NCBI GenBank assembly: GCA_945898055.1
Contig: CAMDGV010000035.1
Span: 1-43,872, forward strand
Reading direction: 5' to 3'
Length of the DNA stretch: 43,872 nt
Source of the DNA: Akkermansia muciniphila
GTDB taxonomy: Bacteria; Verrucomicrobiota; Verrucomicrobiia; Limisphaerales; UBA9464
Shown: piece by piece, positions 2,306-22,417 of the stretch
Position numbering within the stretch: position 1 is the stretch's first letter
Layout of the letters: the number at the start of each line of letters is the position of its first letter
Made by a program: the position numbers and the translations under genes
The notes under the pieces: model-generated
The model's input: only the letters and a program-made list of their open reading frames with translations
Database searches by the model: none
Told to the model about the DNA's origin: nothing

Positions 2306-3586
2306 TTAACTCAGTTTCCAGTTACCACGCATCGGTTGGCTAATATAGGAATTCGCTCTCGGATCATCGATAAACCGCTGTTTCTTGGGATCAAAATGAA
2401 GTGGACGACCGGTCTGGAGTGCAATCTTCGCCAAATTAATCAACGTGCAGGACCGATGCCCATTGACCTCATTTAAAGCGAAGGGATTGCGTGTCTTCAC
2501 TGCTTGAACAAAATCAGTAAGCATCGGCTCTGGATCCGCTAATTCCTTTACCCTTTTTTCAAAATTAGGAATGTTTGTTTTCATTCCTTTCATGATTCGC
2601 CCCTTCGGTCCCTCGATAAAAGCAGCCCCTTTATCTCGGTCCTCACCGTCCAAAATAATTTCCGAGCCATCCGCATATTTAAGTCGGATGTAACGGAAAG
2701 TGCCCACGGCATCCGAATCCTGCTTTGGCGCATCAGATTCAATTTCGATCGGGCTCTCATTATCTTTACCCATAATGTACTGAACAGGATCTAGGTAATG
2801 CTGCCCCATATCGCCAAGTCCTCCCCCATCATAGTCCCAATAGCCTCGGAAAGTACCGTGCACCCGGTGCGGATGATACGGCTTCTCTGGCGCCGGCCCG
2901 AGCCACAAATTGTAGTCCAATTGAGCGGGCACGATCTCTTGCTTTAAATTTGTCCGACCGATCCAATAAAATTTCCAGTCAAACCCAGTGGAGGCATTCA
3001 AAGTCACCTTCAGCGGCCCCCCCAACAGATCGTGCATCACTGCCTTTCGGATGTCTTTTACCGGAACTCCCATACCATAAAAGGAGTCCTTGAAACGGAA
3101 CCAAGTATTGAGACGGAAAATCCGCTTGTACTTTTGCACGGCTGCCACCACCGCTTCGCCTTCTGCAATGGTCCGGGTCATCGGTTTTTCACACCAAATA
3201 TCCTTACCTGCTTTGGCTGCTGCTATCGAAATAATCGCATGCCAATGCGGCGGGGTCGGGATATGGACGATATCAATGTCCTTGCGCTCCAAAACCTCGC
3301 GGAAATCATGGTAACCTTTGCAGTCCGCCCCCCCCTCCTTCACCGCATCCGCTAGATGCACGGAATCAACGTCGCAAACAGCTAGAAGCTTGCACTCCGT
3401 ATTGATCGACTTTACATGCCCCATTCCCATCCCGCCGGTGCCAATGACCGCTCGGGTCAAAATCTCGCTCGGCGGTTTATGCCCAGGCCCTCCCAAAACA
3501 TAACGAGGTACGATGGCCACCGTGGCCATAGAGGCGATCGAACTCTTGAGAAAAGTGCGCCGATTGATCGCGTGACGATAATTCAT
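2306..3586 (-). CDS. Gfo/Idh/MocA family oxidoreductase with Tat signal
   Basis: A 426-residue NAD(P)-dependent oxidoreductase. The N-terminus has a twin-arginine signal (NRRTFLKSS followed by a hydrophobic stretch), which suggests Tat export. The Rossmann fold begins at AVIGTGGMGMGHV and the CEKPMTRTIAEGEAV segment carries the EKP motif of the family. The C-terminal sheet domain contains GGGLGDMGQHYLDPVQYIMG. Exported members in Verrucomicrobiota and Planctomycetota are presumed to act on sugars or cyclitols; the substrate cannot be read here. The ATG at 3584-3586 places the Tat motif correctly. An intrinsic terminator candidate follows. Confidence 0.9.
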   Translation of the reverse strand: MNYRHAINRRTFLKSSIASMATVAIVPRYVLGGPGHKPPSEILTRAVIGTGGMGMGHVKSINTECKLLAVCDVDSVHLADAVKEGGADCKGYHDFREVLERKDIDIVHIPTPPHWHAIISIAAAKAGKDIWCEKPMTRTIAEGEAVVAAVQKYKRIFRLNTWFRFKDSFYGMGVPVKDIRKAVMHDLLGGPLKVTLNASTGFDWKFYWIGRTNLKQEIVPAQLDYNLWLGPAPEKPYHPHRVHGTFRGYWDYDGGGLGDMGQHYLDPVQYIMGKDNESPIEIESDAPKQDSDAVGTFRYIRLKYADGSEIILDGEDRDKGAAFIEGPKGRIMKGMKTNIPNFEKRVKELADPEPMLTDFVQAVKTRNPFALNEVNGHRSCTLINLAKIALQTGRPLHFDPKKQRFIDDPRANSYISQPMRGNWKLS

Positions 3587-3692
3587 AAATGGATAAAAAG
3601 GTCAGGATAAGTGTCACCAAATAGTGACCTTAAACCGTTTCTCTTGGAAAGAACTTCGACAAGAAACAACTCGAAAAAACGGAATCACTCAC

Positions 3693-4871
3693 TCAACCCT
3701 TACGACATCGATCCACCAACTTCGAGGTTCGATCCATCGCAATTTGAATCTGGTCGAAAGCCGTAGCAAAACAACAACGGAGAAACCCCTCTCCACTCGG
3801 ACCAAAGGCCCCACCCGGCACACAGGCCACTTTCTCTTCATTCAACAGTCGAATGGCAAACTCCTTTGATCCCAAGCCTGTCGAACTAATATTGGGAAAG
3901 GCATAAAACGAGCCTCGAGGCAAATGACACGGCAATCCCATGTCGTTTAAAGCTTTCACAATAAAATTACGCCGTAAACGGTACTGGTCGCGCATCGCTG
4001 CAGTCGCCGCTTCGCCGTGAGTCAAAGCTTCAATTGCGGCTTCCTGCGCAATAATACTGGCACACATAATTGCATACTGATGCACCTTCATCATCGCATC
4101 AATCAGATGAACTGGACCACACGCGTAACCAATCCGGAAACCGGTCATGGCGTAGGCCTTGGAAAAACCGTGCAAAAACAAGGTCCGCTCCGCCATTCCA
4201 GCCAATGAAGCAATCGAGACATGCTCCCCTTCAAAGGTCAGTTCAGAATAAATTTCGTCCGTGATAATCAACAAATCATGACGCCGCGCCACCTCCGCGA
4301 TTTCAATCAACTGCGCACGAGTCATCGTTCCTCCCGTTGGATTGGTCGGAAAAGAGAGCATTAACACTTTTGACCTCGGGGTCACCACGGCCTCAATCGC
4401 CTTGGCCGTCACCGCAAATCCATCTTCGGCCCGGCAAATCACGGGCACAGGAACCCCGTGCGAAAGAATAACGCTGGGCGAATAACTCACATAACAGGGT
4501 TCGTGATAAATAACTTCGTCACCTGGATTAAGTGTGGCGCGCAGGGCCAAATCTAAAGCCTCACTGACCCCAACCGCGACGAGCACTTGAGATTTAGGAT
4601 CGTAGCGAACGCCGAACTTAGACTCGACGTAAGTAGAAATACATTCGCGCAGTTTGAGCAGTCCTAGATTGGAGGTGTACTGGGTTCGACCCCGTTCTAA
4701 GGCGTAAATTGCTGCTTCACGAATGTGCCACGGAGTCGCAAAATCAGGTTCTCCGACTCCCAGCGAAATAACGCCGGTGGTGTTTTGAACCAGTTCAAAA
4801 AAGTCTCGGATACCAGAACGTGGAATGCCGGAAACATGGTCTGCAATGAATGTACGCGAAGAATTGAACAT
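3693..4871 (-). CDS. Class I/II PLP-dependent aminotransferase
   Basis: A 392-residue fold-type I aminotransferase. The N-terminus reads ISLGVGEPDFATP. The PLP-binding residues are visible: N177 in PTNPTGG, D205 and Y208 in ITDEIYSE, the Schiff-base lysine K238 in HGFSKAYAMTG, and R246 in FRIGYA. The length is normal for the aspartate/aromatic aminotransferase group. The amino-acid substrate is not predictable. It starts at an ATG (4869-4871) and is divergent from the adenylating enzyme gene, with about 158 bases between them. A short inverted repeat (CGAGAG, 3-base gap, CTCTCG) lies near 4893-4910, but I have no evidence that it is an operator. Confidence 0.88.
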   Translation of the reverse strand: MFNSSRTFIADHVSGIPRSGIRDFFELVQNTTGVISLGVGEPDFATPWHIREAAIYALERGRTQYTSNLGLLKLRECISTYVESKFGVRYDPKSQVLVAVGVSEALDLALRATLNPGDEVIYHEPCYVSYSPSVILSHGVPVPVICRAEDGFAVTAKAIEAVVTPRSKVLMLSFPTNPTGGTMTRAQLIEIAEVARRHDLLIITDEIYSELTFEGEHVSIASLAGMAERTLFLHGFSKAYAMTGFRIGYACGPVHLIDAMMKVHQYAIMCASIIAQEAAIEALTHGEAATAAMRDQYRLRRNFIVKALNDMGLPCHLPRGSFYAFPNISSTGLGSKEFAIRLLNEEKVACVPGGAFGPSGEGFLRCCFATAFDQIQIAMDRTSKLVDRCRKG

Positions 4872-9423: not shown

Positions 9424-10428
9424 ATGCTTCTGTCTTCATTATTTGCAGTGTTTGAACGATTGGACCGAGGTGAGTCGATCCTCTTGGGAGATGAACAGGA
9501 CGTCGATTTTCCTCAGGGCGGACCGTGGATCGGAGTTCGGTCTTCCGGTTCAACGGGGGTTCCGAAATGGGTCTGGCGTCGATGGAGTGATCTCAAGGCC
9601 GAAGTACGGCCGACCACCGGGGCAACTGGATGGCGTTGGGCATCGCCTTTTCAGGCTCAAAGTTTTGCCGGTGTTCAGGTGGCTTTACAGGCTTGGGCGA
9701 CTGGGGGGGAAGTGGTGTCTATTGATTCCCAGTGGGACCACGTTTGGGACCTAGCTCAGCGTGAACCGTGGCAGGCACTTTCCTGCACCCCCACTTACCT
9801 CGACCTTTTACTTCAGAATCAACCAACTGGATTGTCTCCATTGGATCCCCTTCAAATTACTTTGGGCGGCGAAGTATTGCGCCCGATCTGCGGGGTTCGA
9901 TTTGCTACACGCTTTCCTCGCGCGCGATTCACAGTGATTTATGCCGCCGCCGAGTGGGGGGTGCTTCTTAAAACTCATCGGCTCGATGGGTGGTATGAGG
10001 TAGATTCCTTGGATCGTCGTCGGTCAAAGTGGCGTATTGAACAGGGAATTCTTGAGTTACTGGATGTTTTTGGCGTTTGGCAATCCACAGGGGATGGGAT
10101 CGAACGGGACGGAGACCGAGTGCGAATTTTGGGGCGAGCTGATCGAGTGGTCAATGTGGCAGGCACCAAGGTGCACTTGGACGAGATTGGTCGGATGGCG
10201 GAGTTAGTTCCGGGTGTTCGCCGCGCTCTTGCGCTGGCTGAACCGAATGCTATTACCGGTCAAATTATCGTCCTCCATTATTCACCGGAGTCTGGCATCG
10301 ATCCGCGCGCTCTAGAATCGGTTCTTGCCGGAACCTTGCGCGATCAACTCCCAAAACCAGCTTGGCCACGTCGATGGATCTTAGATAATTTGCCGCCGGA
10401 GAAGAATGCAAAGCGACGGGTGTCGTAG
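9424..10428 (+). CDS. Short AMP-dependent acyl ligase (ANL family)
   Basis: A 334-residue ANL enzyme. The P-loop SSGSTGVPKWV lies near residue 40 and the hinge STGDGIERDGDRVRILGRAD is followed by VNVAGTKVHLDEIGRMAEL. The C-terminus LPPEKNAKRRVS could supply the catalytic lysine. Most acyl-CoA synthetases have 100 or more residues before the P-loop, so this one lacks much of the N-terminal subdomain, as in compact MenE-like ligases. I found no frameshifted piece upstream. It probably activates an acyl group for transfer to CoA or to the ACP encoded at 12326. Next genes: SDR, hexapeptide acyltransferase, ACP, exosortase. Confidence 0.78.
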   Translation: MLLSSLFAVFERLDRGESILLGDEQDVDFPQGGPWIGVRSSGSTGVPKWVWRRWSDLKAEVRPTTGATGWRWASPFQAQSFAGVQVALQAWATGGEVVSIDSQWDHVWDLAQREPWQALSCTPTYLDLLLQNQPTGLSPLDPLQITLGGEVLRPICGVRFATRFPRARFTVIYAAAEWGVLLKTHRLDGWYEVDSLDRRRSKWRIEQGILELLDVFGVWQSTGDGIERDGDRVRILGRADRVVNVAGTKVHLDEIGRMAELVPGVRRALALAEPNAITGQIIVLHYSPESGIDPRALESVLAGTLRDQLPKPAWPRRWILDNLPPEKNAKRRVS

Positions 10429-10627
10429 GGGCTTTTTGCGGATTACTTAGCCCGAACAACTCTGGATTTAACTCGTGAGGGCTTTGAAAGAAACGGACCT
10501 TATTTTTTGGTCTGATTTATCAGTCAGCTTCGGCTGCCGGGGTTCGTCGTGACAGAAGCCGGTCGAGCCTGTTATTGCCGATAAGTAGAACGAAGCCCAT
10601 GCTTACCAAATAAGCGGCACCTAAATT

Positions 10628-11392
10628 GTGTCACTTGTTTTATTTGTGACTAATCACCCCCAAATTAGTTCAGTTCCGCGGCGAGCCTTCCTTACCGGTG
10701 CCTCTCGCGGTCTCGGATTGACCATCGCCGAAGCGTTATTGATTGATGGGTGGGACGTCGTTGGTACCGCCCGCCAGTCTACGGTGGGCTTGGATACCCT
10801 TTTCGCTCGTTTTCCAAATCAGCTCCGATTCCATCCCGCCGATATTTCCATTCCGATCGAAGTGGATCGCCTCGTTAATGCTGCACGCTTTCTCGATGGT
10901 TACGACGCCTTCGTCTCCAATGCGGGCATAGGTATGGACGGTTTGATTACACTGGTTTCCCCCGAAGCCATTCAACAAGGGGTACAGGTGAATCTGGTAG
11001 CTCCGATGCTACTCGCTCGGGCTGCGGTAAAGGGGATGTTAACTCGGGGTGGATCGCTTATATTCATCGCTTCGATTGCGGCGAGGACTGGATTTTCAGG
11101 GTTATCAGCCTACGGGGCCACTAAAGCGGGGTTGGTTGGATTCTCCCGTGGGTTGGCGAGGGAATACGGAGCCCGAAATATCCGCTCTAACTGCATCCTC
11201 CCCGGCTTTCTTGACACTGAGATGACGGTCGGCTTGAACGAATCACGTCAGCACCAATTACGACGGCGTACGCCACTCGGGCGTTTAGGTCATACCACAG
11301 ATATTGTGGGGTCAATCCGCTTTCTTCTTTCGGACGCGGCCTGCCATATCACCGGCACCGAGATCACCATCGATGGTGGTATGACGGCCTGA
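10628..11392 (+). CDS. FabG-like short-chain dehydrogenase/reductase
   Basis: A 254-residue classical SDR, closest in pattern to 3-oxoacyl-ACP reductases. The cofactor motif is TGASRGLG, followed by VSNAGIG (NNAG equivalent). The catalytic serine is in IASIAA and the YxxxK pair is in SAYGATKAGLVGFSRGLA. The C-terminal HITGTEITIDGGMTA is typical. The start is GTG at 10628; a second GTG at 10646 would remove only six residues. Its place between an AMP-ligase and an ACP suggests it reduces an ACP- or CoA-bound beta-keto acyl group, but no ketosynthase is seen in the window. Confidence 0.85.
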   Translation: MSLVLFVTNHPQISSVPRRAFLTGASRGLGLTIAEALLIDGWDVVGTARQSTVGLDTLFARFPNQLRFHPADISIPIEVDRLVNAARFLDGYDAFVSNAGIGMDGLITLVSPEAIQQGVQVNLVAPMLLARAAVKGMLTRGGSLIFIASIAARTGFSGLSAYGATKAGLVGFSRGLAREYGARNIRSNCILPGFLDTEMTVGLNESRQHQLRRRTPLGRLGHTTDIVGSIRFLLSDAACHITGTEITIDGGMTA

Positions 11393-11634
11393 AATGGGGT
11401 AGTTTCTCAACCTTAAGAGGTAAAAAAGTTATCGTTTTAACACCTTTTTTGGACTTTACTGACCATGGTAAGAATCGGTTTAAACTTTTTGAAACTGGTG
11501 CTCTGGATAAAAAATAAATCTCCCCTATTTATGGCCGATGACAATCGATCCTTTTTTGTCTCCACTCTTGATTTTAGGCTTTATTTAGGGTAATTCTTCT
11601 AGCTAGTCGATCCGTGTATCCTACTTGTTAAGAA

Positions 11635-12231
11635 ATGCCCTCGCTTCCCGAAATGTCTGCGGGGCCTCTCCTAGATCCCTCAGTCTTGGCAACCGTCCTT
11701 TGTTCGTGCGGCCGCGGCGTTCGCGTTTTTGCTGGGTGCCGAATTGTTTCACCAGAGCGAATTTCTGTGGGCGACTTTTGTCAGATCGATGAGGACGTTC
11801 GCATTTTTGCTGGCGAGGGAATCACTCTAGGCCGCCATGTCCATCTCGCCTTTGGTTGCAGCATTTCCGGTGGCGGGTTTTGTGATATCGGAGACTTTGC
11901 TGGAATTAGTGGTGGGGTCCGAATTGTAACTGGGGCCGATGAAATCCAAGGGGGACTTACCAATCCCACGGTGCCGATGGAGTTTCGACGGGTAAATCGG
12001 TCGCAAGTTGTGATCGGGGCACATGCATTGATTTTCACTTCTGCAGTGGTTTTTCCAGGGGTTCGTATCGGGGAGGGGGCCGTGGTGGCCGCTGGATCGC
12101 TTGTGCATCGAGATTTGCTTCCTTGGTCAATTTACGCGGGAAATCCCCTCGTTTGTATTGGTCGCCGTGACCCTGAACCCATTCTTGATGCCGCGCGACG
12201 GTTGGTCGAATTGGAGTCAGCAGATCAATAA
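11635..12231 (+). CDS. Left-handed beta-helix (hexapeptide) acyltransferase
   Basis: A 198-residue protein with imperfect hexapeptide repeats (ISVGDFCQI, ITLGRHVHLAFGCSISGGG, CDIGDFAGISGGVRIVTGAD, VVIGAHALIFTSAVVFPGVRIGEGAVVAAGSLV), the left-handed parallel beta-helix of acetyl/acyltransferases. The C-terminal WSIYAGNPLVCIGRR matches the usual ..YAGNPAk.i..R ending. Such enzymes O- or N-acylate sugars from acyl-CoA or acyl-ACP. The gene just upstream of an ACP suggests an ACP-borne donor, but that is inference. The 242-base gap before it is A+T-rich and may hold a promoter. Start ATG 11635. Confidence 0.85.
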   Translation: MPSLPEMSAGPLLDPSVLATVLCSCGRGVRVFAGCRIVSPERISVGDFCQIDEDVRIFAGEGITLGRHVHLAFGCSISGGGFCDIGDFAGISGGVRIVTGADEIQGGLTNPTVPMEFRRVNRSQVVIGAHALIFTSAVVFPGVRIGEGAVVAAGSLVHRDLLPWSIYAGNPLVCIGRRDPEPILDAARRLVELESADQ

Positions 12232-12325
12232 GTTCTTGGGGAGATATTGAACACGAAGATTGCGGTCCTTCGCATCGATTTTGCTGTCTGAATAAACAAT
12301 AAAATAATTAATCTCCAACTAATCG

Positions 12326-12568
12326 ATGGATGCCCGCAAACGAATTGAGTTATTGGTTGTCGCCTTAAACCGCAGGAATGGAGGCGACCTCAGTGGCTTA
12401 GACTTTTCCTTACGACTACTAGATGCACGGATCGGACTTGATTCCCTCGATTTGGCGGAAGTGTTGGTGGACTTGGAACGTGAGTATGGCCAGACGCCTT
12501 TTGATCGACCGAAGCCTCCGCGCACTTGGGATGAGCTCGCCCAAATTTTGGAAGCTTCGACGAGATGA
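12326..12568 (+). CDS. Acyl carrier protein
   Basis: An 80-residue ACP. The phosphopantetheine serine is S40 in IGLDSLDLAEVLVDLEREYG, the DSL motif of carrier proteins. The fold length is normal, although the N-terminal half is more basic than the housekeeping ACP. Its last four bases overlap the start of the EpsI-like gene (ATGA at 12565-12568), so translation is probably coupled. The position between a hexapeptide acyltransferase and an exosortase suggests a specialised carrier for an envelope polymer rather than bulk fatty acid synthesis. Proteobacterial exosortase-A loci are known to carry an acyl-CoA ligase and an ACP. Confidence 0.85.
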   Translation: MDARKRIELLVVALNRRNGGDLSGLDFSLRLLDARIGLDSLDLAEVLVDLEREYGQTPFDRPKPPRTWDELAQILEASTR

Positions 12569-13314
12569 AATCTCTTTTCCTACTTGCCGGATCGGTGGTG
12601 ATGGTTTGGTTATTCCCCCATTTATGGTACACGCGAACGGATAAAACTCAGATTGTCCAATGGTTAACCGAACAGACTCAAGCTCCGGGTTGGTCTTACG
12701 CTGCGGTAGAAATCGATAAATCAGCCGAACGTACTTTAGTCGCGGATCGATTGGTGAACGGAGAATTCTCGCGGGAAGATCGCGGACTACAAGTTGTTAG
12801 GGTCTTTGGGGCGCGTCGTTCGAAGGAGAATCCCAAAGAGATCGGTTTGTTTGTTCACACCCCGGACCGGTGTTGGGTTCAGGCCGGTTGGAATTTGAAC
12901 TCAGTGGATTCGGATTATATCGAAGTCGTTTTGCACGGGCGAAGGATTGGGTTTGAACGTCGTTTATTTTCGGTTCAGGGGAAATCGGAATTGGTCTATT
13001 TTGCTGGATTGGTTGGCGGCCAGACACTGCCCTATCGGTTGGACCATAATTATTCGGTGAGTCGTCGGGTGTTGAAAGCGAAGGCTGATGATCGAATAAA
13101 TAAGGCAAATCGCTGGAATGACTCCGTCCTTTGGAGTCGAGTGATCGAGTCCTTCCTAGCACGACGACCGTTGCTTGGGCCGAAACAATTCCTTCGGATT
13201 TCAACCCCAGTGGCCGACGGTGATTTAGCCGCGGCAGATCGGCGTCTTCAAGAACTTCTCCCATTTTGGTTGAAACCGGAAGATGTAATTAGCCCTAGAG
13301 ATTCTAAGGAATAG
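12565..13314 (+). CDS. EpsI-like exosortase-associated protein
   Basis: A 249-residue protein with an N-terminal membrane anchor (about residues 3-20). HTPDRCWVQAGW near residues 98-109 matches the HxPxxCxPxxGW signature of EpsI/DUF3485 proteins, which are encoded beside or fused to exosortases. In this family the conserved Cys is thought to matter, but the biochemical role is unsettled. The protein would face the periplasm. It overlaps the ACP gene by four bases, and its stop (13312-13314) overlaps the GTG start of the exosortase by one base, which marks a tight operon. No PEP-CTERM substrate was seen in the window. Confidence 0.8.
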   Translation: MKSLFLLAGSVVMVWLFPHLWYTRTDKTQIVQWLTEQTQAPGWSYAAVEIDKSAERTLVADRLVNGEFSREDRGLQVVRVFGARRSKENPKEIGLFVHTPDRCWVQAGWNLNSVDSDYIEVVLHGRRIGFERRLFSVQGKSELVYFAGLVGGQTLPYRLDHNYSVSRRVLKAKADDRINKANRWNDSVLWSRVIESFLARRPLLGPKQFLRISTPVADGDLAAADRRLQELLPFWLKPEDVISPRDSKE

Positions 13315-14231
13315 TGATGATTCATATTGATTGTCGAACCGTACCTCTTCGGTGGTCTGCTTTGGGTTTGCTGTTACTTCCGGCTTGGCTAGCCGCTGGT
13401 TGGTTGATTTACCAAACTAGCTGGTATTGGATCCACAATCCGGAGATGAATTTTGGATGGATCGTGGTCCTTCTTTGCGGTTTCATGATCACCGAAGTTA
13501 CACCTGATCTGCCTCCACCTCGAATGCGGTGGACAATTCCATCGGTTACTTTGGTCATTTGCGGGCTCCTATCACTCCTGCTTTTTCAACTTTATCAGGC
13601 AGCCTTCGGAACAATGCCCGCCAGTTTAATGGCCCTCGCTTTTGGATGTATGGCATTGATCACTGCCACTCTTCTTTTTGTGTTCGGGCCGGTGGCTCTT
13701 GGATCTCTTGGATTTGCCTTTTATTTTCTCCTCATTGCTCTCCCCTTGCCCTCAGTGGTTCAATCGTTGATTATTTCTAATCTACAAAACTTCGTCGCGG
13801 CAATGGATGTGGAACTACTTAATCTCATCGGCATTCCTGCACAACGGCACGGCAGCATTATCCAATTGGCCACTGGACTGGTCGGGGTCGACGATGCCTG
13901 TAGCGGATTTCGATCGCTGCAATCATCGATCATGGCCGCAGTGTTCATTGGATTTTTACTCTTTAAATCTTGGGGCTGGCGTCTGGCTTTGGGTGTTTTG
14001 TCGGTGTTGCTGGCTGTCCTTGGCAACCTGGGCCGTACCTTTTATCTTTGCTCTGAGGGGGCATCAAAAGGGATCGATGCTGTCCGAGGGGTTCACGATG
14101 CCGCTGGTTGGTCGGTGATGGCTTTCACTGCAGCAGGCGTGGCCTTTGCCGCTTGGTTAATACTTCGACTGCAAGCGGCTCAAGCGGATTTTGAAACGAG
14201 GTTGGCGGCTGCAAATTCTGGAGATCTTTGA
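13314..14231 (+). CDS. Exosortase (transpeptidase-like membrane protease)
   Basis: A 305-residue multi-pass membrane protein with about eight hydrophobic segments. The catalytic residues of the exosortase/archaeosortase family are all present: C196 in GVDDACSGFRSL, R241 in GNLGRTFYL, and H261 in VRGVHDAAGW. Exosortases cleave C-terminal PEP-CTERM-type signals and attach the protein to the envelope or exopolymer, and they co-occur with EPS genes. Start: GTG at 13314 (overlapping the previous stop) or ATG at 13317; I cannot decide. The C-terminal cytosolic tail is short. The neighbouring sugar transferase, 100 bases downstream, fits the usual EPS context. Confidence 0.9.
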   Translation: MMIHIDCRTVPLRWSALGLLLLPAWLAAGWLIYQTSWYWIHNPEMNFGWIVVLLCGFMITEVTPDLPPPRMRWTIPSVTLVICGLLSLLLFQLYQAAFGTMPASLMALAFGCMALITATLLFVFGPVALGSLGFAFYFLLIALPLPSVVQSLIISNLQNFVAAMDVELLNLIGIPAQRHGSIIQLATGLVGVDDACSGFRSLQSSIMAAVFIGFLLFKSWGWRLALGVLSVLLAVLGNLGRTFYLCSEGASKGIDAVRGVHDAAGWSVMAFTAAGVAFAAWLILRLQAAQADFETRLAAANSGDL

Positions 14232-14331
14232 GGAACACACCGGGAGAAAATAAGGAGAATAGACTCCACGACGAGCACTTCCTCGCCGCATAATCCAATG
14301 TGAACGCATCTTAATTTTGTCTCTAACTAAC

Positions 14332-15045
14332 ATGCGTGAGTCGCTGAGAGTAAATTATAGTTTATCGAGAAGTGCCCCCCCGAACTGGGCTAGTTGGGGG
14401 CAGTATAGGACCTCTGAGGGGTTTCCTCCGAGCAAGCGAATCCTAGATTTTCTGCTGCTGATTCTCTCGTCTCCATGCTGGGTTGCCTTACTGATTTTGA
14501 CCGCTCTCTGTGTACAATGGAGATTGGGGGGGCCGGTGTTGTTCCGACAGGATCGTCCCGGTTTGAAAGGGCGAATTTTTAGAGTGATCAAGTTCCGCTC
14601 GATGACCGATGAACGTGATGCCTCCGATCAACTCTTGCCCGACGCTGTCCGACTCGCTCCTTTTGGGCGTCAACTCCGTTCTACCTCGCTTGATGAGCTC
14701 CCTAGTTTACTCTGCGTACTGAAAGGCGAAATGTCGTTGGTAGGACCTAGGCCTTTGCTACCCCAATATCTAAATCGATATTCCGCAGAGCAAGCCCGTC
14801 GCCATAATTTACCACCGGGTTTGACCGGATGGGCGCAGGTAAATGGGCGTAATGCTTTGGCGTGGGAAGACAAATTTCGACTCGACGTCTGGTACATCGA
14901 GAACGCCAGTGTCGGATTAGATTTATGGATTCTTTTTCACACCGTTTTGAAGGTCGTTCGACCTGACGGAATCTCGGCGGTTGGGGAGGCCACAATGCCA
15001 GAGTTTTTAGGGACATCCCCAAGACCGGACTCATCTCCAAAGTAA
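14332..15045 (+). CDS. Polyprenyl-phosphate sugar-phosphate transferase
   Basis: A roughly 237-residue member of the bacterial sugar transferase family (monotopic phosphoglycosyl transferase, like PglC and the WcaJ C-terminus). It has one membrane-inserted helix (LDFLLLILSSPCWVALLILT), then GGPVLFRQDRPGL, FRVIKFRSMTDERD with the catalytic Asp-Glu pair (D93-E94), and the ending LVGPRPLLPQYL ... RHNLPPGLTGWAQVNGRN. It starts exopolysaccharide repeat-unit assembly by moving a sugar-1-phosphate onto undecaprenyl phosphate at the inner membrane. I prefer the ATG at 14332 to the TTG at 14317. It follows the exosortase gene on the same strand. Confidence 0.9.
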   Translation: MRESLRVNYSLSRSAPPNWASWGQYRTSEGFPPSKRILDFLLLILSSPCWVALLILTALCVQWRLGGPVLFRQDRPGLKGRIFRVIKFRSMTDERDASDQLLPDAVRLAPFGRQLRSTSLDELPSLLCVLKGEMSLVGPRPLLPQYLNRYSAEQARRHNLPPGLTGWAQVNGRNALAWEDKFRLDVWYIENASVGLDLWILFHTVLKVVRPDGISAVGEATMPEFLGTSPRPDSSPK

Positions 15046-17741: not shown

Positions 17742-19202
17742 TTGAAGCCTACACCCAAAATTTACCAATGGATGGATACCATTTCGGGTTTGTTGTTGTT
17801 CTCCATGATTGTCTTCACGCCTTGGGCGTGCGGAACCACCACAACCCTGCCTATTTGGACCATGAACACTGGGGGATTCCTCTTAGGCGCTTTCTGGATT
17901 GGTAAATGTTTGTATCGGAGGCTTCATCAATATGCCCCCGTCTGGATTGAAGGATCGATCGGTTCGGTTTGGCCTATCCGTTTTACCGGCGGGGGAACTA
18001 TTTTTCTTTTGGCCTATGTACTGGTCAGCACTCTGAATCCAAATTCAGAGATTCAGTACACCTATGATTTGGACTATGCCGTTCCAACAGGGATTAAGTT
18101 TACCCATTTTTGGAACCCGATTCTTTGGTTGCCCCATAGCTTTGATGGACCGCGTACCTTAAGGGCTTTTTGGAAATATTTAGCGATGACACTCAGTTTC
18201 TGGGCCGCACGAGACTGGCTGTTGACCTGTTCACGGAACGAACGAAAAACCAAACTAGAAGGGGTACTGAAATTTCCAACCGATCGAATTCAAGTTCTTC
18301 TCTGGACTCTATCGATCAACACCGCCGCCCTCGCTCTTGAGGGGATCCTGCAGCGATTAGATAAGACACAACTATTGCTCTGGTACTTCCCTAATCACGA
18401 GAACGCAGGTGACGCGGCCTTTGGGCCTTTTCCTTACCAATCCAATGGGGCTCAGTATCTAAATCTGATATGGCCGGTGATGTTAGGATTTTGGTGGGTG
18501 CAAAGGGGGCGGAATTTGGAAATGCGCGGGCCATCGGCAAAAGGAGGTGGTGAGTCGCATGTAATCCTTCCAGTCCTCATCGGATTAGTTGCTGCGGGAG
18601 TGTTCGTAGCCCAAAGTAAAATTGGCTTTGCGTTGATGGCAGCAATGCTAGCGGTCGGCTTCCTGATCCTTTGGCTTTTCAGTCAACATCAGAGGTCAAT
18701 AAAATTTCTGTTAATGGGGATGTTTGGGGGGTTGGTTGCCTTGGGCGGATGGGTGGGCGGTGAGTCCTTGCGTGACCGGTTTCTAGGGCTTGATTTACAA
18801 ACTTGGAGTGGCAGGAAGGAGATTTATCAACACGCTCGCCAGATGCAGTCTGACTTCCAAGTTTTTGGTTCGGGGGCTGAGACCTTTATGCCTCTCTACT
18901 ATGTTTACCGCGATGAGTCAACTGAGTGGGCCGCCTATGCTCACGACGACTTTATGGAAACGCGGATCACTCTGGGATGGATTGGTTTTGGGACGGTAGT
19001 GTCGATCTTTGGTGCTATTTGGGGCGGGGTGTTTGCAGGGCGCGGAATCGGGGCGCGCCGAGAATTCCTGCTCTTGTTTGGCCTTGCCTTGGGCGGATTG
19101 ATGGCGCATTCAGCGTTTGATTTGCCCTTTCAGATTTACGCTATTCACTTTCAATTTTTGATCCTTTGCGCTCTCGCCACCTGCCTTCGATGGCAGAGAT
19201 AA
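17742..19202 (+). CDS. O-antigen ligase / Wzy-type polymerase family membrane protein
   Basis: A 486-residue multi-pass membrane protein. The Wzy_C region is recognisable by a large periplasmic loop with GSGAETFMPLYYVYRDES followed by YAHDDFMETRITLGWIG, matching the G.G...F ... aHNd.l....e.G..G pattern. Such proteins join or polymerise lipid-linked polysaccharide chains at the periplasmic face. The start is uncertain: TTG at 17742, or ATG at 17772 which would remove ten residues; neither has a clear ribosome-binding site. It lies 71 bases after the lipoprotein gene on the same strand and probably belongs with the sugar transferase at 14332. Confidence 0.8.
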   Translation: MKPTPKIYQWMDTISGLLLFSMIVFTPWACGTTTTLPIWTMNTGGFLLGAFWIGKCLYRRLHQYAPVWIEGSIGSVWPIRFTGGGTIFLLAYVLVSTLNPNSEIQYTYDLDYAVPTGIKFTHFWNPILWLPHSFDGPRTLRAFWKYLAMTLSFWAARDWLLTCSRNERKTKLEGVLKFPTDRIQVLLWTLSINTAALALEGILQRLDKTQLLLWYFPNHENAGDAAFGPFPYQSNGAQYLNLIWPVMLGFWWVQRGRNLEMRGPSAKGGGESHVILPVLIGLVAAGVFVAQSKIGFALMAAMLAVGFLILWLFSQHQRSIKFLLMGMFGGLVALGGWVGGESLRDRFLGLDLQTWSGRKEIYQHARQMQSDFQVFGSGAETFMPLYYVYRDESTEWAAYAHDDFMETRITLGWIGFGTVVSIFGAIWGGVFAGRGIGARREFLLLFGLALGGLMAHSAFDLPFQIYAIHFQFLILCALATCLRWQR

Positions 19203-20954: not shown

Positions 20955-21638
20955 ATGAAGCAAACGTTTGCCGGCCAGGGATTCCCCGGCCGTTTAATTG
21001 CTGTGGAAGGACTCGATGGCTCGGGTAAGTCGACCCAGATCTACCTACTCAAACGCTGGCTTGAAATGCGTGGATTGAAGGTTTTTTTTAGCGAATGGAA
21101 TTCTTCTGCCCTCGTGAAGAGCGCCACTAGTAAGGGCAAGCAACAGAATTTGCTCACGCCCACCACCTTTTCACTAATTCACGCCACCGATTTTGCCGAT
21201 CGGTATGAGCGACAACTGGTGCCCTTACTGAAGGCTGGCTACATTGTGCTCTGTGACCGATATATTTATACCGCCTTTGCTCGAGATGTCGTCCGAGGGT
21301 GTCCACCTGCTTGGGTCCGTGGTGCTTATAGTTTTGCGACCCGCCCAGATATTACCTTTTTCTTCAGATCCCATTTAGAAGTTTCATTGAATCGGATCCT
21401 CGATAATCGCCCCACCTTAAAACATCACGAAGCGGGTATGGATTTAGGGCTATCGACCGATCCTTACGAAAGTTTTCGTCTTTTTCAGGGCCGGATTTTT
21501 GAACAGTATCTGGCGATGAGCACTGAGTTCGACTTTGTGGTCATCGACGCCAACCAGCGCATTGAAGAGCAACAAGGCCTCGTGCGACGCTTGGTGGAGA
21601 GCCGCATTGAACTGGACCAATTTAGCGCAGATAAATGA
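20955..21638 (+). CDS. Thymidylate kinase-like P-loop kinase (first of tandem pair)
   Basis: A 227-residue P-loop kinase with a canonical Walker A, GLDGSGKSTQ (K25), the region LVPLLKAGYIVLCDRYIYTAFARD that carries the DR motif of dTMP kinases, and ATDFADRYERQ. dTMP kinase makes dTDP from dTMP and ATP. The central segment EWNSSALVKSA differs from classical Tmk, so another (d)NMP-like substrate is possible. It lies only eight bases upstream of a homologous gene, and the two share many blocks, so this is an old tandem duplication. Start ATG 20955. Confidence 0.72.
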   Translation: MKQTFAGQGFPGRLIAVEGLDGSGKSTQIYLLKRWLEMRGLKVFFSEWNSSALVKSATSKGKQQNLLTPTTFSLIHATDFADRYERQLVPLLKAGYIVLCDRYIYTAFARDVVRGCPPAWVRGAYSFATRPDITFFFRSHLEVSLNRILDNRPTLKHHEAGMDLGLSTDPYESFRLFQGRIFEQYLAMSTEFDFVVIDANQRIEEQQGLVRRLVESRIELDQFSADK

Positions 21639-21646
21639 CCTGATCT

Positions 21647-22417
21647 ATGGCCCGTCCTAAACGTATTCGTGCAACCGCAGCCGCGGTATTTGTTCCTAAA
21701 GTTACGCCAAAACGTTTCTTTGGTCTTGGTCTTCCCGGAGTTGATATCGAGAAACTGAGCGGCAAACTGATTGTCGTCGAGGGCGCCGATGGTTCAGGGC
21801 GATCTACCCAGATCGCTCGCCTTGTTCAATGGTTGGAAGCATCGGGTCACCATACCGTCCAAGTCGGGTTGAAACAGTCGTCTCTCGTTAGCGAAGAACT
21901 GGAAACAGCTCAACAGGGTAACATTCTCTCTCGCACGACACTTTCGTTATTTTATGCGACGGATTTTGCGGATCAATTGGAGAACAATATCATGCCCGCT
22001 TTGAGGGCTGGATCGATGGTTCTAGCGGACCGTTACATTTATACTCTCATGGTCCGAGATTTAGTTCGGGGCATGGACGAGGGATGGCTTCGCAATCTTT
22101 ATGGCATCGCGCTGGTTCCAGATGCGGTTTTCTATTTAGAGGTGCGCCCCGAAATCTTGGTCCAACGCGTCTTTGCCAAACAACAAGCTCTTGATTACTG
22201 GGAAAGTGGGATGGATCTCGGCTTGTCGCGCGATATGTTTGAAAGCTTTCTCAAGTACCAAAGCCGGATGCGTGAGACCTTCCGTCACCTGCAGTTGCAC
22301 TACGAGTTTGATCTGATTGATGCGGAACGTTCGGCTGACGAAATCAATGAGGATCTGCGTCGCCGGATTGAGGCTGTGTTAGCGGGCGATTCCGGTCGAA
22401 ACCCAGTAGTGAGTTGA
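21647..22417 (+). CDS. Thymidylate kinase-like paralogue with altered Walker A
   Basis: A 256-residue paralogue of the preceding protein. Shared blocks include ATDFADQLE, LADRYIYTLMVRDLVRG and SGMDLGLSRD.FESF. The phosphate-binding loop reads GADGSGRSTQ, with Arg52 where the invariant Walker A lysine is expected (codon CGA at 21800-21802). It also has a basic N-terminal extension of about 37 residues that the neighbour lacks. A lysine-to-arginine change usually lowers ATP turnover strongly, so this may be a regulatory or pseudo-kinase subunit, perhaps pairing with the first protein. It starts at ATG 21647, eight bases after the first gene's stop. Confidence 0.7.
   Translation: MARPKRIRATAAAVFVPKVTPKRFFGLGLPGVDIEKLSGKLIVVEGADGSGRSTQIARLVQWLEASGHHTVQVGLKQSSLVSEELETAQQGNILSRTTLSLFYATDFADQLENNIMPALRAGSMVLADRYIYTLMVRDLVRGMDEGWLRNLYGIALVPDAVFYLEVRPEILVQRVFAKQQALDYWESGMDLGLSRDMFESFLKYQSRMRETFRHLQLHYEFDLIDAERSADEINEDLRRRIEAVLAGDSGRNPVVS

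Follow-up and report, generated by a model that had tools for sequence, protein, structure and literature searches.

A verrucomicrobial exosortase locus with a predicted pathway for an N-acylated amino-sugar glycan starter

The exosortase gene epsH is reported to lie nearly always among genes for exopolysaccharide (EPS) synthesis, where it is correlated with sugar transferases of family PF02397, and the occurrence of exosortases with EPS genes and in Verrucomicrobia is already known (PMC1569441). In a published account, the compound to which exosortases attach proteins is called unidentified, and its authors raise, as speculation, a compound similar to the linking sugar of the type IX secretion system (PMC7468200). 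Here, a stretch of 43,872 nucleotides (the window; contig CAMDGV010000035.1 of assembly GCA_945898055.1) is described in which an exosortase and an EpsI-like protein are encoded together with an acyl ligase, a reductase, an acyltransferase, an acyl carrier protein (ACP), and a sugar transferase. We consider it somewhat probable that this locus couples the exosortase and EpsI to the synthesis of an N-acylated 4-amino-6-deoxy sugar as the first unit of a glycan, to which proteins would then be passed.

Several described systems share parts with this locus. Proteobacterial XrtA/PEP-CTERM loci likewise combine an exosortase, an EpsI-type partner, a sugar transferase, and AMP-ligases of the exosortase A-associated family TIGR03098; in contrast, the blocks of the relatives studied here carry a dehydratase, a 4-aminotransferase, and AntD-like and PglC-like enzymes, while the window exosortase and ligase score far under the XrtA and TIGR03098 cut-offs and the ligase is shorter. 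AntD of D-anthrose biosynthesis, which we take to be the closest solved acyltransferase to the profile of the window acyltransferase, acts on a dTDP sugar with an acyl-CoA as donor and is not known to be associated with an exosortase. The compound 3-hydroxy-3-methylbutyryl-CoA is tied to anthrose synthesis (PMC8141488). The Campylobacter Pgl bacillosamine pathway (PglF/PglE/PglD/PglC) resembles the locus in its PglF-like, aminotransferase, and PglC-like parts, whereas here the N-acetyl group would be replaced by a carrier-delivered acyl group and an exosortase stands in the block. The predicted Acinetobacter route to UDP-D-QuiNAc4NR (Gdr/QhbB/QhbA of A. baumannii KL1) follows the same logic with a 4,6-dehydratase, a 4-aminotransferase, and an acyltransferase that adds an acetyl or 3-hydroxybutyryl group; the loci with these genes also encode ItrA, an initiating transferase of only about 205 aa, which the accessible part of the source does not state to act on the QuiNAc4NR sugar, and a ligase, a carrier protein, EpsI, and an exosortase are not named in that part (PMC3628348). 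In the type IX system (Wbp/Vim), a modified sugar likewise accepts sorted proteins, which are attached through their C-termini to a linking sugar that bears an amino acid (PMC7468200); the enzymes and the sugar differ, the group carried is an amino acid rather than a hydroxyacyl group, and PorU belongs to the gingipain family and is not an exosortase. The literature searched, mainly non-subscription, contained no report of an exosortase tied to an acyl-amino-sugar starter pathway, and the work found on a verrucomicrobial exosortase with an ACP concerns, in its accessible part, another kind of locus (PMC7293339).

All seven genes of the block lie on the plus strand, where the initial annotation, made from the sequence, had placed them (9424-15045 of the window):

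9424..10428, plus strand: short AMP-forming acyl ligase of the ANL superfamily, 334 aa (Pfam AMP-binding, E 5.7e-8)
10628..11392, plus strand: FabG-like short-chain dehydrogenase/reductase, SDR (adh_short_C2, E 2e-49)
11635..12231, plus strand: hexapeptide acyltransferase, HEX, AntD-like (Pfam Hexapep, E 2.5e-7)
12326..12568, plus strand: ACP with a DSL motif (from the translation; weak TIGR00517 match)
12565..13314, plus strand: EpsI-like protein, DUF3485 (PF11984, E 5.1e-7)
13314..14231, plus strand: exosortase of the upstream-EpsI subtype (PF09721, Exosortase_EpsH, E 7.3e-37)
14317..15045, plus strand: PglC-like phosphoglycosyl transferase, GT (PF02397, Bac_transf, E 4.7e-56)

The ACP and EpsI genes overlap by 4 bases (ATGA) and the EpsI and exosortase genes by 1 base (TAGTG), and the remaining gaps amount to 199 (ligase-SDR), 242 (SDR-HEX), 94 (HEX-ACP), and 85 bases (exosortase-GT). 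Coordinates and domain searches confirmed the gene set, the single direction, and the ACP-EpsI-exosortase overlaps claimed in that annotation, and the Pfam and NCBIfam content of the block upheld its description of the locus as an exosortase combined with an acyl-carrier module; the domain searches agree with the gene names, weakly for the ligase and marginally for the ACP. Promoter- and terminator-like sites across the block were no more frequent than at chance level, so the block is co-directional, and its transcription as a single unit is conjectural.

The exosortase matches PF09721 with 127.6 bits (cut-off 25.7) and the general signature TIGR04178 with 44 bits (cut-off 23), and Cys196, Arg241, and His261, presumably the active-site residues, are invariant in nine of nine aligned sequences. 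It is neither XrtA (TIGR03109, 98.3 bits, cut-off 208) nor the VPLPA-CTERM enzyme XrtD (TIGR04152, 90.3 bits, cut-off 400), and EpsI is a separate gene here. The parallel with exosortase-A loci that had been drawn at the outset thus stands in part: an AMP-ligase family is indeed named as exosortase A-associated (TIGR03098), but the window exosortase and ligase miss the cut-offs of XrtA and of that family. The EpsI-like protein, compared in an 18-member alignment, begins by reading with a hydrophobic helix. Its model (window 12565-13311, pLDDT 80) is closest in structure to DcrB (Z 8.8), SciW (Z 7.9), and a PsbP-like protein (Z 7.8), scores near the warning level of the tool and accompanied by no Foldseek match below E 0.001, and a Mog1/PsbP/DcrB-like fold is therefore assigned tentatively. 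SciW, which shares the candidate fold, has been solved bound to a transmembrane domain, and this could hint at a role of EpsI in holding the PEP-CTERM helix.

The host genome (G000; G, C, and L numbers are our labels for genomes, contigs, and loci) is a 4.63 Mb draft assembly, 95% complete, with the window as contig 35, and is likely that of a verrucomicrobium, as the initial annotation supposed. It has three exosortases: besides that of the window, the one on C7 is a fusion with an EpsI-like domain and the one on C43 is followed by an EpsI-like gene, the EpsI-like parts of the latter two being assigned by reading; none passes the cut-off of a named type, and all pass TIGR04178. The C43 exosortase and EpsI-like gene (L014:11103-15604) are followed, again by reading, by lipid-transport permease-, ABC ATPase-, and MCE-type-like genes.

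A search with the window exosortase across 146 genomes of its order gave matches in 74, short enzymes standing clearly apart from long fused ones, and the better matches were retrieved as 34 stretches. The subtype with EpsI upstream was recognised in 19 genomes, weaker matches being partly examined and one genome (G121, with its match split in two) lying outside the fetched set. The subtype comprises 25 loci, 19 from the genomes of the order including the window and 6 from a scan with a ligase profile, among which L053 is counted though rearranged and L080 and L081 are near-copies, giving fewer than 25 independent cases. In the exosortase tree, 22 of the 25 fall into one fork (support 90/88) along with L061, and L059, L069, and L070 are weakly placed outside it; the subtype may have had a single origin. 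Two of the module-bearing loci (L086 and L091) are deposited as Omnitrophota and Akkermansia muciniphila, respectively, labels that may be wrong.

Within 9 kb of the 25 exosortases, counts affected by several short contigs, a ligase is encoded in 17 cases (one of them, in L056, a different full-length enzyme), an SDR in 15, an ACP in 14, HEX in 14, a PglC-like GT in 17, a PglF-like dehydratase (CapD) in 12, and an aminotransferase (DegT) in 9. The common order is DegT-ACP-ligase-SDR-HEX-EpsI-exosortase-GT-CapD with parts missing, and the block is found again in other families of the order. L079 and L092 read CapD-DegT-ligase-SDR-HEX-ACP-EpsI-exosortase-GT, that is, the window order, with the ACP adjoining EpsI, preceded by CapD and DegT. 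The flanks of L092 also match the window, with a DUF218 gene on the opposite strand (37% identity), an APH-type gene (70%), and the next gene (42%).

The linkage holds when the search starts from the ligase. The short-ligase profile exceeded 150 bits in 12 of the 146 genomes, in 10 of them within 9 kb of an exosortase, and the contig of one of the 12 (G122, taken as L084) stops inside EpsI. A scan of a species-genome collection returned 15 ligase loci, with an exosortase in 14 and EpsI in all 15; eight were already counted and a ninth (L084) is probably that of G122, which leaves six new. Together, 16 of 18 distinct short-ligase loci have an exosortase within 9 kb, which, with the order in L079 and L092, supports conservation of the gene order in relatives, the check put forward in the initial annotation. 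By genome, the short ligase is found in 11 of the 19 with the subtype versus 1 of the 127 others (Fisher p 8e-11). At least one of the GT, CapD, DegT, ligase, and HEX genes is near the exosortase in 22 of 25 upstream-EpsI loci, in 1 of 16 other focal-like loci, and in 1 of 16 other exosortases (22/25 versus 2/32, Fisher p 1.5e-10). These last controls were 22 loci, 16 of them scorable, the six without a match to the window exosortase at 1e-3 being uncounted, and most had flanks of about 5 kb, whereas those of the focal type reached up to 10 kb. In each of the 22 positive upstream-EpsI loci, one of the five genes lies within 4 kb. Distances between proteins of the block are correlated (Mantel), as for ligase and exosortase (r 0.64, n 16, p 0.0005) and SDR and exosortase (r 0.77, n 15, p 0.0005), the weakest of the 15 pairs being HEX and GT (r 0.37, n 10, p 0.05). 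Because the block recurs in other families and the protein distances correlate, the association is more than chance.

On the sugar side, the transferase carries DELP and GPRP motifs and has as its best Protein Data Bank (PDB) match PglC (8e37, E 3.6e-57, residues 40-232), followed by WbaP at 3e-28, so that by sequence it is, by a wide margin, a PglC-type phosphoglycosyl transferase. The best PDB match of the HEX profile is 3vbi with its variants (E 5e-35, the next best 1e-11), a match of sequence profile only to entries labelled galactoside O-acetyltransferase, which we take to be AntD, the anthrose N-acyltransferase reportedly described by Kubiak and Holden in 2012. In relatives, the dehydratase of L055 matches PglF (WlaL, 5bju) at E 8e-85, and the aminotransferase of L092 matches the LegC family at E 8e-98, under the family cut-off. 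Given the PglF-like dehydratase and 4-aminotransferase of the relatives, the PglC-like GT, and the HEX profile match, the pathway reads as one for an N-(hydroxy)acylated 4-amino-6-deoxy sugar on a lipid carrier. Between the ligase and SDR of L092 lies a GDP-mannose 4,6-dehydratase gene (L092:4053-5066, E 1.6e-139), and a GDP-sugar route may operate there.

The host genome encodes a dehydratase homologue of 625 aa (E 2.8e-199 to the L055 CapD). Its two longer DegT matches were considered as the module aminotransferase and rejected, one being nearest to WbpE and the other to 7b0d, 2oga, and QdtB, with the reaction types of these matches presumed. As a side observation, a WbpE-like aminotransferase gene on C3 (L155:7033-8127, E 2e-134) lies about 3 kb from a PEP-CTERM gene with a VPEPGEYA tail (3483-4205); enzymes of the WbpE class belong to the route by which the type IX linking sugar is made.

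On the acyl side, the ligase bears the motifs SGSTGVPK (SGSTGxPK) and GRADRV. At 334 aa it is about 180 residues shorter than the TIGR03098 model (517), against which it scores 20.6 bits (cut-off 592). Its eight homologues in a nine-member alignment measure 344-380 aa, a short ANL enzyme of 358 aa has been solved (4gs5), and the nearest Foldseek matches of its model (pLDDT 88) are OSB-CoA ligase 3ipl, the short 4gs5, and 4-chlorobenzoyl-CoA ligase; as the homologues are similarly short and the model resembles ANL enzymes, it is not taken for a fragment. The SDR has a TGASRG motif and its best NCBIfam match is 3oxo_ACP_reduc (E 8e-53, under its cut-off). The ACP has no Pfam match and a weak one to NCBIfam TIGR00517 (E 0.004), and the DSL phosphopantetheine motif is present in all eight ACPs read (the window and seven homologues). 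The SGSTGxPK, DSL, TGASRG, and DELP/GPRP motifs are assumed to have their usual roles in the ligase, ACP, SDR, and transferase, respectively. The position of the SDR next to a ligase and an ACP points to a 3-hydroxyacyl group. Across the phylum, 26 of 387 genomes, a sample with few members of the order, matched the short ligase; the best match outside the host genome reached 149 bits, most lay in frames of 413-616 aa (two in frames of 316 and 351), and these candidates were read as other ligases.

In a few related loci, other acyl-supply genes, located upstream in the same orientation, replace or accompany the set. L048 has a FabH-like synthase, an SDR, and a PglD-type acyltransferase at a distance of 6-10 kb; L056 has the full-length ligase and another SDR directly before EpsI; L060 (5418-10664) has a full-length AMP-ligase, an iron alcohol dehydrogenase, and a LuxE-LuxC fusion at 4-10 kb; and L080 has a FabH-like synthase in addition to the ligase set. 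We take this exchange, seen in few loci, as a sign that the acyl group itself matters.

The sorting signals that the initial annotation proposed to look for are present in the genome: the PEP-CTERM model found 8 sites over its cut-off and 1 below in the host genome, while among 14 control genomes E<=1 was reached in 7 and the cut-off passed in 2, with E<=0.1 in none. As the host genome has two other exosortases, its PEP-CTERM proteins are unassignable by presence alone. Assignment by counts in the subtype genomes was likewise tried and rejected; each of these genomes has another exosortase match (in G115 a weak fragment), and genomes of other kinds have PEP-CTERM proteins too. All 18 subtype genomes considered have 2 to 29 PEP-CTERM matches at E<=0.1, and 18 of 23 genomes without the subtype have matches of other forms.

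Four of the eight tails in the host genome have the form VPEPxxYA, with WRRR after the hydrophobic stretch. This form, first spotted in G000, was searched as a DNA pattern in 41 hand-chosen genomes that include G000 itself: 18 with the upstream-EpsI type, all of the 19 except G029, and 23 others, the downstream-EpsI type being excluded. It occurs in 10 of the 18 (45 sites) versus none of the 23 (p 4e-5), and without G000 in 9 of 17 versus none of 23 (p 9e-5). Among the matches listed, at least 17 of the 45 sites are PEP-CTERM (G000 4, G020 8, G101 3, G003 1, G116 1), and the genomes so confirmed give at least 5 of 18 versus 0 of 23 (p 0.011). A broader VPEP[ST]T pattern separates the groups less (14/18 versus 12/23, p 0.09). 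In a survey of 97 tails hand-picked among the best matches listed, of which 80 were usable with PEP aligned (37 with the subtype, 43 without) and 17 were shifted or unreadable, tyrosine stood third after PEP in 9 of 37 (four from G000) versus 2 of 43, and tryptophan preceded the basic run in 6 of 37 versus 1 of 43, the latter feature depending almost on one genome because five of the six are from G000. VPEPxxYA is thus a suggestive candidate for the cognate signal of the upstream-EpsI exosortase. A dedicated target beside the block was sought by scanning the window and 20 loci for a PEP-like tail with a hydrophobic stretch and a basic end, which gave two matches, neither convincing.

A number of observations weigh against an exosortase joined to such a sugar pathway. 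Among the 25 upstream-EpsI loci, the 9 kb around the exosortase lack a ligase in eight, an aminotransferase in 16, and a dehydratase in 13. None of the five genes was found at the thresholds used in L047, L051, and L057, of which L047 spans only 4.8 kb and contains a fragment of HEX and L051 begins 1.8 kb before the exosortase; L054 is without SDR and HEX, and L080 and L081 are without the AntD-like enzyme. In G102, ligase, SDR, and HEX occur on an 11.7 kb contig without an exosortase. The host dehydratase lies outside the window on C28, with the other module genes absent from the 14 kb fetched around it, and the module-type aminotransferase is present in the host only as two C-terminal 74-residue pieces at the ends of C27 and C47. 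These 3' ends (L160 and L161) are near-identical, 96% over 241 bases, which suggests a repeated aminotransferase gene, in at least two copies, that broke the assembly. Among solved structures, the L045 DegT resembles perosamine synthase about as much as it does those that we take to be PglE. As to the signal, 8 of 18 subtype genomes lack VPEPxxYA, the form is confirmed in only at least 5 of the 10 genomes among the matches listed, APEPSTYA and TPEPSTYA tails occur in G022, which is without the subtype, and a reversed control pattern gave 9 matches in 7 of the 41 genomes, from both groups, so that single VPEPxxYA matches can be chance.

The locus might instead be a plain EPS cluster, in which the module makes an acylated repeat-unit sugar that the exosortase, a mere resident, does not use. 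In its favour are the reported setting of exosortase genes among EPS genes, with PF02397 transferases as a correlated family (PMC1569441), the loci without a nearby ligase, and the unlinked ligase set of G102. Set against this are the 16 of 18 short-ligase loci near one exosortase type, the presence of any of the five genes at just 1 of 16 scorable loci of other exosortases, mostly of the same genomes, the correlated protein distances, and the position of EpsI and the exosortase between the acyl genes and the transferase in most block-bearing loci; the explanation appears possible, if doubtful.

Another possibility is an amino acid as the cargo of the ligase and ACP, which would leave a free amine on the sugar, as in the type IX linking sugar or in D-alanylation. 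Among NCBIfam models, the ligase matches the amino acid adenylation domain TIGR01733 best (48 of 317 bits), and the best PDB matches of its profile are a peptide synthetase and DltA. In DltA, the Asp of the FDLS stretch contacts the amino group of the substrate. In the ligase this Asp aligns with Ala82, invariant in nine of nine sequences, and without the acidic residue of DltA an amino acid cargo is unlikely. The structure search moreover places acyl and aryl ligases on top and DltA at rank 14, and the SDR and the FabH-like alternative suit hydroxyacyl groups. Although the type IX linking sugar is amino-acylated (PMC7468200), an amino acid relay is therefore judged highly improbable. Least credible is a small lipid or secondary-metabolite module lying by chance beside the exosortase: N-acyl amino acid synthases of other bacteria are reported to adjoin PEP-CTERM/exosortase genes frequently (Craig 2011, as cited in PMC7293339), but the Pfam search found no condensing enzyme in the window block, the HEX profile is nearest to the 3vbi family, presumably acting on nucleotide sugars, and relatives group HEX with a dehydratase, an aminotransferase, and a PglC-like transferase.

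From the observed gene content, conservation, homology, catalytic residues, and signal co-occurrence, the following route is predicted, in every reaction and in the identity of the acyl group. Briefly, a membrane dehydratase (PglF/CapD) and a LegC/PglE-type aminotransferase would convert UDP-GlcNAc to a UDP-4-amino-4,6-dideoxy sugar, while the short ligase would activate a carboxylic acid and load it onto the ACP, and the FabG-like SDR would set a 3-hydroxyl on the acyl group. The AntD-like enzyme would transfer this group to the 4-amino group of the sugar, and the PglC-like enzyme would place the sugar phosphate on a lipid carrier. The exosortase would then cut PEP-CTERM proteins, possibly the ones whose signal reads VPEPxxYA, and hand them to the glycan built on this sugar; the hand-over, suggested by analogy with the type IX system, is the weakest step. 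An acylated glycan, as first annotated, remains the best reading of the locus in a changed form: the gene set is wider, and, because relatives add a dehydratase and a 4-aminotransferase, the first, carrier-linked sugar most probably bears the acyl group at its 4-amino position. That this carrier-linked N-acylated amino sugar is itself the exosortase acceptor, with proteins joined either to a group on its acyl chain, such as the 3-hydroxyl, or to the glycan that it begins, is a tentative extension that we hold to be rather unlikely.

Outside the tight block, three genes downstream, a further gene possibly accessory to it has homologues in the fetched stretches of five other exosortase loci:

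17742..19202, plus strand: O-antigen ligase/polymerase-like membrane protein (Wzy_C, E 9e-11)

Further along the window (20955-22417), two neighbouring thymidylate-kinase-like genes were recognised by reading their translations.

The placement of an exosortase inside a predicted pathway for one definable starter sugar, along with a candidate form of the signal, provides a concrete chemical candidate for the acceptor, and the question of what PEP-CTERM proteins are attached to becomes directly testable. In Verrucomicrobiota, the link between exosortase and acyl chemistry uses enzymes other than those named for exosortase A. If the acceptor proposal is true, the locus would encode a sorting enzyme together with its own linking sugar, and the swapped acyl sets of its relatives would be alternative ways to the same handle.

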